Assembly: GCF_002019695.1 (NCBI RefSeq)
Contig: NZ_KV917376.1
Coordinates: 3,438,040-3,502,039 of the forward strand
DNA from: Evansella clarkii
Lineage (GTDB): Bacteria > Bacillota > Bacilli > Bacillales > Salisediminibacteriaceae
Length of the DNA stretch: 64,000 nucleotides
Reading direction: 5' to 3'
The position numbers and the translations under genes are program-made. The notes beneath the pieces are model-generated. The model did not search any database and was not told the origin of the DNA. It saw nothing but the letters and a program-made list of their open reading frames with translations. Of the stretch, positions 2,077 through 23,621 are shown in pieces; the first letter of the stretch is position 1; each line of letters starts with the position of its first letter.

Positions 2077-2133
2077 GCGAATGGGACTGGTTTGTTGGCA
2101 GTGAAGCGAAGGATTTATTGCTTATATTGGCGG

Positions 2134-2227
2134 TTCGCCGATAAAAATGGAATTTCGCCGATAAAATTTGTTTTTCGCCGATAAAAGCACCGGTTTCGCC
2201 AATAAAACAACTTTTTCGCCGATAAAC
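2134..2227. repeat. Five-copy TTCGCCGATAAA intergenic repeat
   Basis: The core TTCGCC(G/A)ATAAA starts at 2134, 2154, 2174, 2195 and 2215, giving a 20-21 bp period with variable spacers. It fills the gap between guaC and the convergent kinase-like gene. The fourth copy has A for G in the core. The function is unknown; similar short intergenic repeats are, to my knowledge, frequent in Bacillaceae genomes. Confidence 0.85.
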
Positions 2228-2262: not shown

Positions 2263-2916
2263 TCATCCAGCCTGTCTTCCCTTCCATTTCGGGGACTTCA
2301 CCGAAAGCAGTCTCTCTAAATAATTCTTTTTGTATAAAAAAGCGATCGTATTTAATAAGTAATCAGGAATTTTCTTCGGAAAAAGCCTGTGATGATAAAA
2401 TTTATAATAAGCTGTTTTAAGATCTTTCCACTGAGAGCAGACCTTACTCTGCCGGAAGCGGGCGACATCGATCAGTTTAACGTTACCGTCGTTTGTTATA
2501 AATATATTCCTTAAATGAATATCAGAAGGGTTTAACCCCTTTTCTCTTGCAAACTTAATCGCACGGTCTACTTCTTTTATATACTCCGGCATGATTTGCG
2601 TTCCAGAGGCAGCACAGCTGAAAAACGTCTTCCCGTTGATGAGGTCCATGACGAGATAGTTTGTTCCGGCTTCATACAGACGGGGAAAATATGACACGCC
2701 CGCAAGACGTTGGTATATTTGCGCCTCTTCTCGAGCAACAGCAGTAAACTCCGGAAAAAATACTTTCAATGCTTTGTCAGTGCCGGCAACAGAAAAAACA
2801 AAAGCGCTCCGCCCTTTACCCAAAAGCTGAAGCCGGTTATCTTTTTCTGCCAGCAACACCCTCCTGCCGATTTTTTTATACTTTACACTTTCGGCTAATT
2901 TATTATAGTTTGCCAT
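2263..2916 (-). CDS. Kinase-fold protein (Ser/Thr kinase or RIO-like) under a Mn riboswitch
   Basis: The 217-residue product has a reduced protein-kinase fold. Visible are a glycine-loop-like LLGKGRSAFVFSV, a Lys in KALKVFF, an LVMDLINGK hinge, a catalytic-loop-like PSDIHLRNIFI (Asp with downstream Asn) and a DFG-equivalent LIDVARF. It is much shorter than a full eukaryotic-type kinase and resembles the small YrzF-type kinases of Bacillus; substrate unknown. The reading frame is open to 3033, but I chose ATG 2916 because it has a GGGGG site and the longer form would run into the riboswitch terminator. Its only visible control is the manganese riboswitch 100 bp upstream. No exporter gene lies between the two. 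Confidence 0.75.
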   Translation of the reverse strand: MANYNKLAESVKYKKIGRRVLLAEKDNRLQLLGKGRSAFVFSVAGTDKALKVFFPEFTAVAREEAQIYQRLAGVSYFPRLYEAGTNYLVMDLINGKTFFSCAASGTQIMPEYIKEVDRAIKFAREKGLNPSDIHLRNIFITNDGNVKLIDVARFRQSKVCSQWKDLKTAYYKFYHHRLFPKKIPDYLLNTIAFLYKKNYLERLLSVKSPKWKGRQAG

Positions 2917-3015
2917 AGTTATACCCCCTGATTTGTGGTGGCAGCTGTTCATTCCACTCTGTTTACACAACTGAAAGCCAATCAAAATACACGGTCTCAG
3001 CCCCTTTTTTAAAAA

Positions 3016-3184
3016 CAAAAAAACCTTTACCATCTATGAAATGGTAAAGGTTGATTAATAGTGTAATTGTACCTTTACCTGCTTCCGGTAAAGGTCTTGC
3101 TAACAACGTTATGTTGCCGGCACAGCCGGGAGGAAACCTCCGAAATGACGACTGTGCAGTAAAAGCTACTCCCCTTTAAGAGAA
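3016..3184 (-). promoter_or_regulatory. yybP-ykoY manganese riboswitch with terminator
   Basis: Read on the minus strand, the aptamer (about 3184 to 3068) has the diagnostic yybP-ykoY elements: AAAGGGGAGTAGC at the 5' end, TGCACAGTCGTCATTTCGG, then AACATAACG and AGCAAGACCTTTACC with its pairing GGTAAAGG. It is followed by a terminator stem ACCTTTACCAT / ATGGTAAAGGT (3022-3052) and a T-rich run. The aptamer 3' arm and the terminator share CCTTTACC/GGTAAAGG, which would allow alternative pairing. In this RNA class Mn2+ binding favours antitermination. The next gene is the kinase-like gene at 2263-2916. Confidence 0.93.
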
Positions 3185-3203
3185 TATTCAGCTGTATAAA
3201 ACT

Positions 3204-3232
3204 ATCATAAGTATATTTTAATGTTCTGTCAA
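3204..3232 (-). promoter_or_regulatory. Sigma-A promoter of the riboswitch transcript
   Basis: On the minus strand TTGACA (3232-3227) and TATGAT (3209-3204) are separated by 17 bp. Transcription would begin near 3197, a few nucleotides before the aptamer, which supports the riboswitch call and its orientation. Confidence 0.85.
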
Positions 3233-3279: not shown

Positions 3280-4125
3280 TTAGAAATCAAAATTATCCGG
3301 GTCTGGCCCTACCCGGTGGTCTTCGTTCAGTTCGTCAATTCTGCCCATTTCCTCATCTGACAATTCAAAGTCAAACACGTCCGCGTTGTCTCTGATACGG
3401 TGCTCTTTCACAGATTTAGGAATCGTCACTACTTCATTTTGCAAATCCCAGCGTAAGATCACCTGTGCTGATGATTTGCCATATTTTTCACCGATTTCCT
3501 GAAGTACTTCATTGTTTAAGAGTTCACCCTGCATTAACGGAGACCACGCTTCCAGTTGAATGCCATGTTCCTTACAGAAGGCATGAAGCTCTTTTTGAGT
3601 GAGACGGGGATGGTACTCAACCTGGTTGACCATCGGTACAACTTCTGCATCCTTCAGTAAATCCTCCAGGTGATGAATGTGGAAGTTACTCACACCGATT
3701 GCTTTAACCCGGCCGTCTTTATAGAGCTTTTCAAATGCTCTCCAGGCGTCCTTATATTTCCCTTCCACAGGCCAGTGGATTAAGTATAAATCCAGGTAGT
3801 CGAGACCGAGTCTTTCCAGGCTTTCCTCGTAAGCCCTTATTGCAGACTCATATCCAAGATCAGAGTTCCACACTTTCGATGTGATAAATAACTCCTTCCT
3901 GGAGATTCCGGCAGCCTCCATTCCTTCCCGAATCCCCTGCCCTGTTCCTTCTTCGTTTTTGTAAATTGCTGCAGTATCAATGCTTCTGTATCCGTGCTTG
4001 ATTGCAGTGCGGACAGAACTGACTGCTTCATTCCCATCCTTTACTTTAAATACACCAAGGCCGAACCATGGCATGTTCACCCCGTTATGCAATTTCACAG
4101 TATCTGCTAAATTTTTTGCTGGCAT
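3280..4125 (-). CDS. yvgN: Aldo/keto reductase (YvgN-type glyoxal/methylglyoxal reductase)
   Basis: This 281-residue NADPH-dependent reductase has the AKR barrel. Catalytic residues fit the family: Asp and Tyr in YRSIDTAAIYKNEEG, Lys in ITSKVW and His in YLIHWP; the C-terminal IPKSVKEHRI segment binds the 2'-phosphate of NADPH. The sequence follows B. subtilis YvgN closely along its whole length, including the VGPDPD tail. The likely role is detoxification of glyoxal, methylglyoxal and other aldehydes in the cytoplasm. It is a stand-alone gene with ATG at 4125 behind an AGGAG-like site. Confidence 0.92.
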   Translation of the reverse strand: MPAKNLADTVKLHNGVNMPWFGLGVFKVKDGNEAVSSVRTAIKHGYRSIDTAAIYKNEEGTGQGIREGMEAAGISRKELFITSKVWNSDLGYESAIRAYEESLERLGLDYLDLYLIHWPVEGKYKDAWRAFEKLYKDGRVKAIGVSNFHIHHLEDLLKDAEVVPMVNQVEYHPRLTQKELHAFCKEHGIQLEAWSPLMQGELLNNEVLQEIGEKYGKSSAQVILRWDLQNEVVTIPKSVKEHRIRDNADVFDFELSDEEMGRIDELNEDHRVGPDPDNFDF

Positions 4126-23201: not shown

Positions 23202-23322
23202 AAAAACACATCCGTTTTCAGAATGTGCTATCCATTAAAACGGTAACTGGCTGGCATAACTTTGCAGTTGTAGCCCCTGTAGTTTTGCGTCCCATCATTT
23301 CTGAAGGTTTGCCCTGAACGTT
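23202..23322 (-). promoter_or_regulatory. Cyclic di-GMP-I (GEMM) riboswitch with terminator
   Basis: On the minus strand the aptamer (about 23322 to 23232) has the class I signature: AGGGCAAACC, a GNRA-like hairpin (TTCAGAAATGA), GGGACGCAAA, then a second helix and AGCCAGTTACCG near its 3' end. A terminator follows directly: CACATTC / GGATGTG stem with TTTTT at 23206-23202. The coding region of the GGDEF-EAL protein begins 107 bp further. Whether ligand binding promotes or blocks termination cannot be told from sequence. Confidence 0.93.
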
Positions 23323-23621
23323 TAGTTTTAAAATTTTCCAATTAATTACACTGATTCCTTTTGAAGTTACCATAAGTACTTTGTCTGTACGATAAGAAAT
23401 TTTTATAATTACAGGACTTGGGATGAGAGAGGGAAACAATTAACTTCATAGGGTTATAGTCATCCTGTAAAAGTACCGTTCCCTTGTCTGAAATTTTTAA
23501 AACTACCAGAGTGGATAATATATCCATGTAAGAGTTATGTTAGTGGTTAAAAACTAAAGAAACAGGCTGATGAGAAAAAATTCTCAACAGCCTGCCAGGG
23601 TCATAATTAATCTGAATAGCT
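23323..23621. other. Intergenic region upstream of the c-di-GMP riboswitch
   Basis: About 300 bp of AT-rich sequence between the AbgT stop and the aptamer. It includes a hairpin near 23567-23597 (CAGGCTGATGAG / TTCTCAACAGCCTG), a plausible terminator of the AbgT operon on the minus strand but without a strong T-run. No open frame is supported and no clear -35/-10 pair for the riboswitch transcript was found. Confidence 0.5.

Follow-up and report, generated by a model that had tools for sequence, protein, structure and literature searches.

A transcriptional ON switch responding to Mn2+ probably drives, in Evansella clarkii, a unit whose single gene encodes a small RIO-like kinase. The unit lies in a stretch of 64,000 nucleotides of contig NZ_KV917376.1, called here the window. 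While the riboswitch class is known, its recurrent association with a kinase, a client that is not a transporter, was not encountered in the literature searched. The ligand and the direction of switching are those that we infer from the known class; the activity of the kinase and its place in the Mn2+ response are putative.

The leader and its switch

All elements of the unit lie on the minus strand. A sigma-A-type promoter (TTGACA at 3232-3227, 17-nt spacer, TATGAT at 3209-3204) matches the consensus at 11 of 12 positions and precedes a yybP-ykoY / Mn2+ riboswitch aptamer at 3182-3089, whose P1 helix joins 3178-3173 to 3094-3089. An intrinsic terminator, detected by the terminator scan, consists of a 14-pair hairpin (3052-3022) and a U-rich tract extending to 3011; at its looser thresholds, the promoter and terminator scan yields 1.2 promoters and 0.3 terminators in shuffles. 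The kinase ORF (2916-2263) encodes 217 aa from an ATG start, and a putative ribosome-binding site, GGGGG, stands 7 nt before this start codon (2928-2924). A 256-aa version of the ORF, present in the ORF list, was rejected, its start falling within the terminator. Upstream of the switch, an aldo/keto reductase (AKR) gene recognized by Pfam lies on the same strand as the kinase (3280-4125). The next ORF downstream of the kinase (1055-2038), which we take to encode a GMP reductase, is on the plus strand, so that the kinase is the only gene of its transcription unit. The 201-nt leader folds with a z of -5.0, none of 200 shuffles being equally stable. The initial annotation had placed an aptamer, a terminator and a promoter on the minus strand, with a small kinase-fold protein as the sole next gene. 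The first claim is borne out by the RF00080 match, the promoter and terminator scan and the leader fold, the second by the 217-aa ORF and the strand of its downstream neighbour.

Two other features were seen in the window. Tandem-like TTCGCCGATAAAA units occupy 2110-2225 (plus strand), between the kinase and the gene at 1055-2038, and are also found in the sister genome G003 (locus L004). A c-di-GMP-I riboswitch lies at 23239-23323 on the minus strand (72.6 bits).

The Rfam model RF00080 (release 15, 177 positions, gathering score 45) gives the window aptamer 22.8 bits, with an E value of 2e-4 in 421 nt and of 6.2e-4 over the 5.5-Mb genome. The aptamer is one of only two matches of this genome at E <= 10, and the other, at 29.5 bits, is likewise below the gathering score; when this score of 45 bits is applied, RF00080 has no match at the window aptamer. 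A sub-threshold score had been named beforehand as grounds for refutation. This is formally the case (22.8 against 45), but the cut-off does not discriminate, TerC-linked loci also falling below it. Among ten TerC-linked and ten kinase-linked Bacillales loci, seven and five, respectively, gave a match at E <= 0.5, with scores of 23-37 bits that all fall short of 45; the remaining eight were not listed at this E value. The cut-off was given little weight because TerC-linked switches of relatives miss it too, and many Mn2+ switches of this bacterial order may escape RF00080 with the gathering score now in use. The window RNA is thus filed in the yybP-ykoY class by its predicted structure and its motifs, not by its RF00080 score.

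These motifs were compared in 21 aptamers, 20 of them kinase-linked and one being the other, exchanger-linked copy of the genome. The L1 (GGGGAGUAG) and L3 (CGUCA..CGG) motifs, Mn-sensing adenosine included, are invariant in all 21, the aptamers having been picked by a scan for GGGGAGTAG then CGTCA, so that these letters are partly selected. In solved structures, Mn2+ is contacted through the N7 of an adenosine, A41 in L. lactis and A48 in X. oryzae (extract of PMC6754395). Mapped by motif, the adenosine at 3146 (minus strand, UCA motif of L3) corresponds to this Mn-sensing residue. The consensus structure of the 21 aptamers has 29 pairs, with 97.0% of cells paired and two-sided changes in 17 of the 29; none of 500 shuffles scored as high, and slid controls were 32-51% paired. 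Covariation backs the helices P1, P3 and P4, the invariant core pairs of P1 carrying no covariation information. No P2 hairpin appears in the predicted structure of the window aptamer. A second model, R1, was built from related aptamers; it gives the window aptamer 102.5 bits, a score that is not independent, R1 having been trained on kinase-linked aptamers including that of the window.

The expression platform appears to be coupled to P1, a prediction drawn from complementary sequences and from folds computed under constraints. The 3' strand of P1 can form six pairs with the P1 5' strand or nine pairs with GGUAAAGGU just downstream. The latter pairing, between ACCUUUACC (3095-3087) and GGUAAAGGU (3079-3071), would produce a predicted anti-antiterminator hairpin at 3096-3071 (minus strand). 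Alternatively, the same GGUAAAGGU segment can form nine pairs with the terminator 5' arm, ACCUUUACC at 3051-3043, in a possible antiterminator at 3079-3043 (minus strand). Computed up to the terminator 5' arm, the energies of the P1 state (-43.0) and of the anti-antiterminator state (-44.2) are so nearly equal that a bound ligand could tip the balance. Over the whole leader, the balance lies with the terminator fold (-51.3 including P1, versus -44.9 for the antiterminator fold). Since it is the more stable fold when both halves are present, the ON state must rest on co-transcriptional kinetics.

At low Mn2+, the P1 3' strand would be paired with the GGUAAAGGU segment just downstream, letting the terminator form. 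At high Mn2+, the docked aptamer would hold and stabilise P1, leaving the GGUAAAGGU segment free to pair with the terminator 5' arm; this antiterminator pairing would avoid the terminator and allow transcription into the kinase gene. Comparable leader logic was seen in most of the kinase-linked leaders inspected, and many relatives use the P1 3' strand directly as the 5' arm of a terminator-like hairpin; a crude scan of kinase-linked leaders found no terminator in six. In L. lactis, P1.1 competes with the terminator and Mn2+ leads to the ON state (PMC11087558). By analogy with it, both designs, that of the window and that of the relatives, read as giving Mn2+ = ON.

Like the leader of L. lactis yoaB and the Bacillales ykoY/TerC leaders (RF00080), that of the window has the L1/L3 motifs, the Mn-sensing adenosine, the helices P1, P3 and P4, a P1 3' strand shared with a downstream hairpin and a terminator platform. 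It differs from known yybP-ykoY leaders by its client, a kinase and not a transporter or TerC, by the absence of a predicted P2 and by an RF00080 score below gathering. It also has an extra segment between P1 and the terminator, from which the anti-antiterminator/antiterminator pair arises.

The kinase protein

The 217-aa protein scores below both relevant Pfam cut-offs (Pkinase, 27 bits for a cut-off of 31.7; RIO1, 20.5 bits for a cut-off of 22). A kinase fold is predicted by its AlphaFold2 model (pLDDT 89, pTM 0.81), whose top Foldseek matches in the PDB are the A. fulgidus Rio2 structures 1zar/1zao, solved with Mn2+ and either ADP or ATP (E of about 1e-7, 1.2e-7 for the best, with a TM-score of about 0.54 and 18% identity). 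The protein would thus be RIO-like by fold, the RIO1 cut-off of Pfam not being reached. GxGRSA (G33-x-G35-R-S-A), K51, E64, D132, N137 and D150 do not vary in either of two sets of orthologues, of 23 and of 30 sequences. By motif, these residues are assigned to the G-loop, the Lys, the Glu, the catalytic Asp, the Asn and the DFG-type Asp; the catalytic loop has PSD in place of HRD. From the model and these positions, we read the protein as an active RIO-like kinase, its activity being predicted.

The likeness to Rio2, a RIO-type atypical kinase, extends to the fold, the short C-lobe, the glycine-rich loop, the Lys and Glu, the catalytic Asp, the Asn and the metal-binding Asp. However, identity is only 15-18%, the TM-score is about 0.55, the RIO1 score is below its cut-off and the HRD-type motif is replaced. 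Its catalytic core also resembles, weakly, that of the Hanks-type Ser/Thr kinases PknA, PknB and PrkC in sequence and fold. Unlike these enzymes, the protein is soluble and has 217 aa; the searches reported no PASTA or transmembrane part for it, and its Pkinase score is below the cut-off. Between the window genome (G000) and the sister genome G003, the dN/dS of the kinase is about 0.20. A plasmid search for annotated relatives of the kinase gave 25 records, none with at least 60% identity, several of which are labelled serine/threonine protein kinase.

Recurrence of the pairing and other clients of the switch

R1 was run over the 80 best of 262 kinase loci, so that the counts describe close orthologues only. 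A strong match (72-102 bits) was found at 65 of these 80 loci, each time upstream of the kinase and on its strand. Two weak matches at the usual place (L098, 18.3 bits; L082, 17.7 bits) were scored as absent, and beyond these 67 R1 has no match in the 673 kb covering the 80 loci. Among the 15 loci without a strong upstream aptamer, at least one (L085) is truncated, its contig ending 971 nt ahead of the kinase. At 44 of the 65 loci, no gene of at least 70 aa was accepted between aptamer and kinase. The distance to the kinase start is 183-363 nt in 41 of them and 443-492 nt in three, 37 of the 44 having 183-223 nt from aptamer start to start codon; four (L070, L073, L128 and L131) hold a small ORF of a recurrent family in this interval. 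The other 21 loci have intervening genes, encoding Spo0M (11), Spo0M and TerC (4), a DUF6376 lipoprotein (4) or TerC (2); TerC is thus found between aptamer and kinase in 6 of the 65 and Spo0M in 15.

A further set of relatives' loci has the switch upstream, on the kinase strand, in 23 of 48 cases (20 of the best 30, the window's own included, and 3 of the next, less similar 18, where a fourth match, L259, is divergent), and 25 of the 48 have no strong upstream aptamer. No switch was found at 20 loci of distant paralogues (28-35% identity). Genera with kinase loci include Cytobacillus, Mesobacillus, Peribacillus, Sporosarcina, Paenisporosarcina, Viridibacillus, Metabacillus, Salipaludibacillus and Halobacillus. 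Chance adjacency was considered and rejected. For a given gene, an R1 match on its strand and no more than 400 nt upstream is expected about once in 10,000, a figure which derives from about 2.2 R1 matches per genome and genomes of about 4 Mb and which, the loci being related, is no formal probability. Comparative genomics, with 65 of 80 and 23 of 48 loci against none of 20 for the paralogues, lends support to the proposal of the initial annotation that Mn2+ induces the kinase.

Two records of other bacteria, L104 (Chryseobacterium sp. ISL-80) and L136 (Pseudomonas sp. ISL-84), have a kinase and a switch that group closely with those of Bacillaceae; these are probably mislabelled or contaminated assemblies.

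Within the genus of the window, the unit of switch and kinase is present in two of nine genomes, G000 and G003. The aptamer of G003 shares 91 of its 94 positions with that of the window, and both promoter hexamers are kept. The two genomes have in common the block DUF421-DUF4363-AKR-switch-kinase-guaC; in other genomes of the genus, AKR homologues 60-69% identical have neither switch nor kinase adjoining, a pattern that does not tell gain from loss. On a tree of 147 kinases, made by a quick method with no bootstrap and with a long-branch warning, the presence or absence of the switch changes at least 18 times, the direction not being given. Kinase and switch remain associated even though the genes lying between them vary, an argument in favour of a functional link.

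The clients of the switch were also counted by running R1 over 51 genomes, most of them selected to represent one family each of the order. This census gave 114 matches in 50 of the 51 genomes (about 2.2 per genome). The 112 stretches taken account for all of them when the window's own and one tandem pair within L145 are added; in this pair (G054:C3:427024 and 427535), two Mn2+ aptamers lie about 500 nt apart on the same strand. Ten loci whose strand was unsettled by the motif scan were oriented by the strands of their R1 matches. By mechanical ORF calls, which left 3 of the 112 loci without a called gene, and with family names checked by Pfam on ten representatives only, the downstream runs contain TerC at 57 loci, Na_Ca_ex at 16, Spo0M at 12, the kinase at 7, DUF1232 at 7 and CNNM at 5. 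Rarer clients are DUF6376 (4), a second kinase family (3), BacA (3) and DUF5392 (3). No TerC, exchanger or CNNM gene was called at 35 of the 112 loci, nor in the same run at any of the seven kinase loci, a count which leaves out the window, which would be the eighth. Recurrence of such kinases downstream of the class, raised as a check by the initial annotation, is therefore observed, as that of a minority client (7 of 112 census loci). The second Mn switch of the window genome precedes a cation exchanger of Na_Ca_ex type, according to Pfam on a representative.

The company of the kinase is varied. Among the neighbours at the 80 best loci, a DUF6376 lipoprotein gene occurs 21 times on the same strand (17 downstream, 4 upstream), Spo0M upstream 16 times, TerC upstream 6 times and CNNM downstream 6 times. 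FbpB-family ORFs follow the aptamer at 16 of these 80 loci and at 9 of the 112 census loci, some loci being counted twice. Genes for these small basic proteins, three representatives of which score above the PF13040 cut-off, come immediately after Mn2+ riboswitches in 27 locus entries, several of which are duplicates of a locus already counted; the leaders concerned include L064, L066, L070, L073, L158, L163, L167, L170 and L177. In B. subtilis, FbpB and the small RNA FsrA act in iron sparing, the role of RNA chaperone being only postulated (PMC8464778, in part). The proteins found after Mn2+ switches could possibly be a Mn2+ counterpart of this iron-sparing FbpB.

Other recurrent genes were noted. 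A second family, of very basic proteins about 36-43 aa long, is encoded in kinase-linked leaders (L019, L023, L025, L027, L028, L128, L131 and L257), and two representatives have no Pfam or NCBIfam match. The same is true for one representative of a third recurrent small ORF found after Mn2+ switches, whose product is possibly membrane-bound (L171, L199, L202, L203 and L211). Genes of the Spo0M family lie under Mn2+ riboswitches at 12 of 112 census loci and at 15 of 65 kinase loci, a link between Mn2+ and a family of sporulation control. The second kinase family, of canonical Ser/Thr type, lies in the run downstream of Mn2+ switches at L169, L174 and L181, the L174 protein reaching 117 bits with Pkinase.

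In the literature covered, Mn2+ riboswitches are described as controlling transporters and genes of Mn2+ homeostasis. Client genes that do not fit Mn2+ have been noted (PMC7266159, in part). A recurrent kinase client was not found in the portions covered (for example of PMC4342826, PMC10898510, PMC7266159, PMC9495176 and PMC3871023), a search which left out key discovery papers of 2015. Among the matches listed for riboswitch, manganese, protein kinase and Spo0M, nothing concerned a kinase client; no literature on yybP together with fbpB was found, and the mention of yrzF was incidental where examined.

Alternative explanations and biological meaning

The initial annotation had also proposed that an exporter was lost and that a kinase captured its switch. 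The kinase would then be a passenger, the real clients of the switch being classical metal genes, with the exporter or TerC gene lost from the operon. The six of 65 kinase loci where TerC intervenes, the lead of TerC among all clients in the census (57 of 112 loci, against 16 for Na_Ca_ex) and a tree that needs at least 18 changes of switch presence, in no given direction, are compatible with such a loss. It is nevertheless quite improbable given the 44 of 65 loci that have no gene of at least 70 aa between and that are spread across many tree branches. Furthermore, none of the seven census kinase loci has TerC, exchanger or CNNM in the same run, the kinase keeps its switch as the intervening genes change, and this genome has another Mn switch, located before an exchanger. 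It is very improbable that the aptamer is tuned, as a variant of its class, to an ion other than Mn2+, so that the kinase would answer to something else: the discriminator adenosine and the L1/L3 motifs show no variation among the 21 aptamers, of which 20 are linked to kinases and one to the exchanger. Such tuning has nevertheless been considered for the class, some yybP variants probably sensing other divalent ions, which would explain client genes unrelated to Mn2+ (PMC7266159, in part). Moreover, a mgtA switch with a three-way junction, responsive to Ca2+/Mn2+, is cited second-hand in a portion of PMC9495176, and the structure predicted for the window aptamer is also without P2.

The leader hairpins have a match to the PyrR-binding site RF00515 (27.5 bits) that spans both of them, and a (yybP-ykoY)(PyrR)-ykoY leader is listed for B. 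methanolicus (PMC4342826, in part). However, this match has an E value of 0.077 and a score far below the gathering score of 54, and the hairpins behind it are those of the anti-antiterminator and the terminator; pyrimidine control in place of a Mn2+ platform was rejected as extremely improbable. Concerning the protein, it is rather unlikely that a pseudokinase or a small-molecule kinase is encoded and that no protein phosphorylation follows. The replaced histidine of HRD (PSD), the short C-lobe and the weak family scores would fit this, as would, for a small-molecule kinase, weak matches to sugar and antibiotic kinases. Against this reading, every catalytic and metal-binding position is invariant, and the nearest folds are Rio2 and kinases of PknA/PknB type.

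With a Mn2+-induced, active kinase as the preferred reading, it is proposed that the enzyme would phosphorylate a protein of the Mn2+ response. Proteins encoded by operon neighbours, namely TerC, the DUF6376 lipoprotein, the FbpB-type protein and Spo0M, would be the first candidate substrates.

The pairing of switch and kinase across related bacteria suggests that high Mn2+ is answered by a signalling enzyme as well as by metal transport. Tentatively, the Bacillales Mn2+ riboswitch may command a module of Mn2+-stress signalling and post-transcriptional control that goes beyond efflux and TerC metalation and that comprises the RIO-like kinase, FbpB-family proteins, Spo0M, the DUF6376 lipoprotein and, at three census loci, the second kinase. 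If this is true, the kinase would serve as the output, converting a sensed Mn2+ level into protein phosphorylation. The presence of FbpB, Spo0M and DUF6376 genes under the same switch class points to a Mn2+ response wider than export. The conserved kinase client ties a kinase family to a known signal and provides a directly testable link from Mn2+ to phosphorylation in Bacillales.
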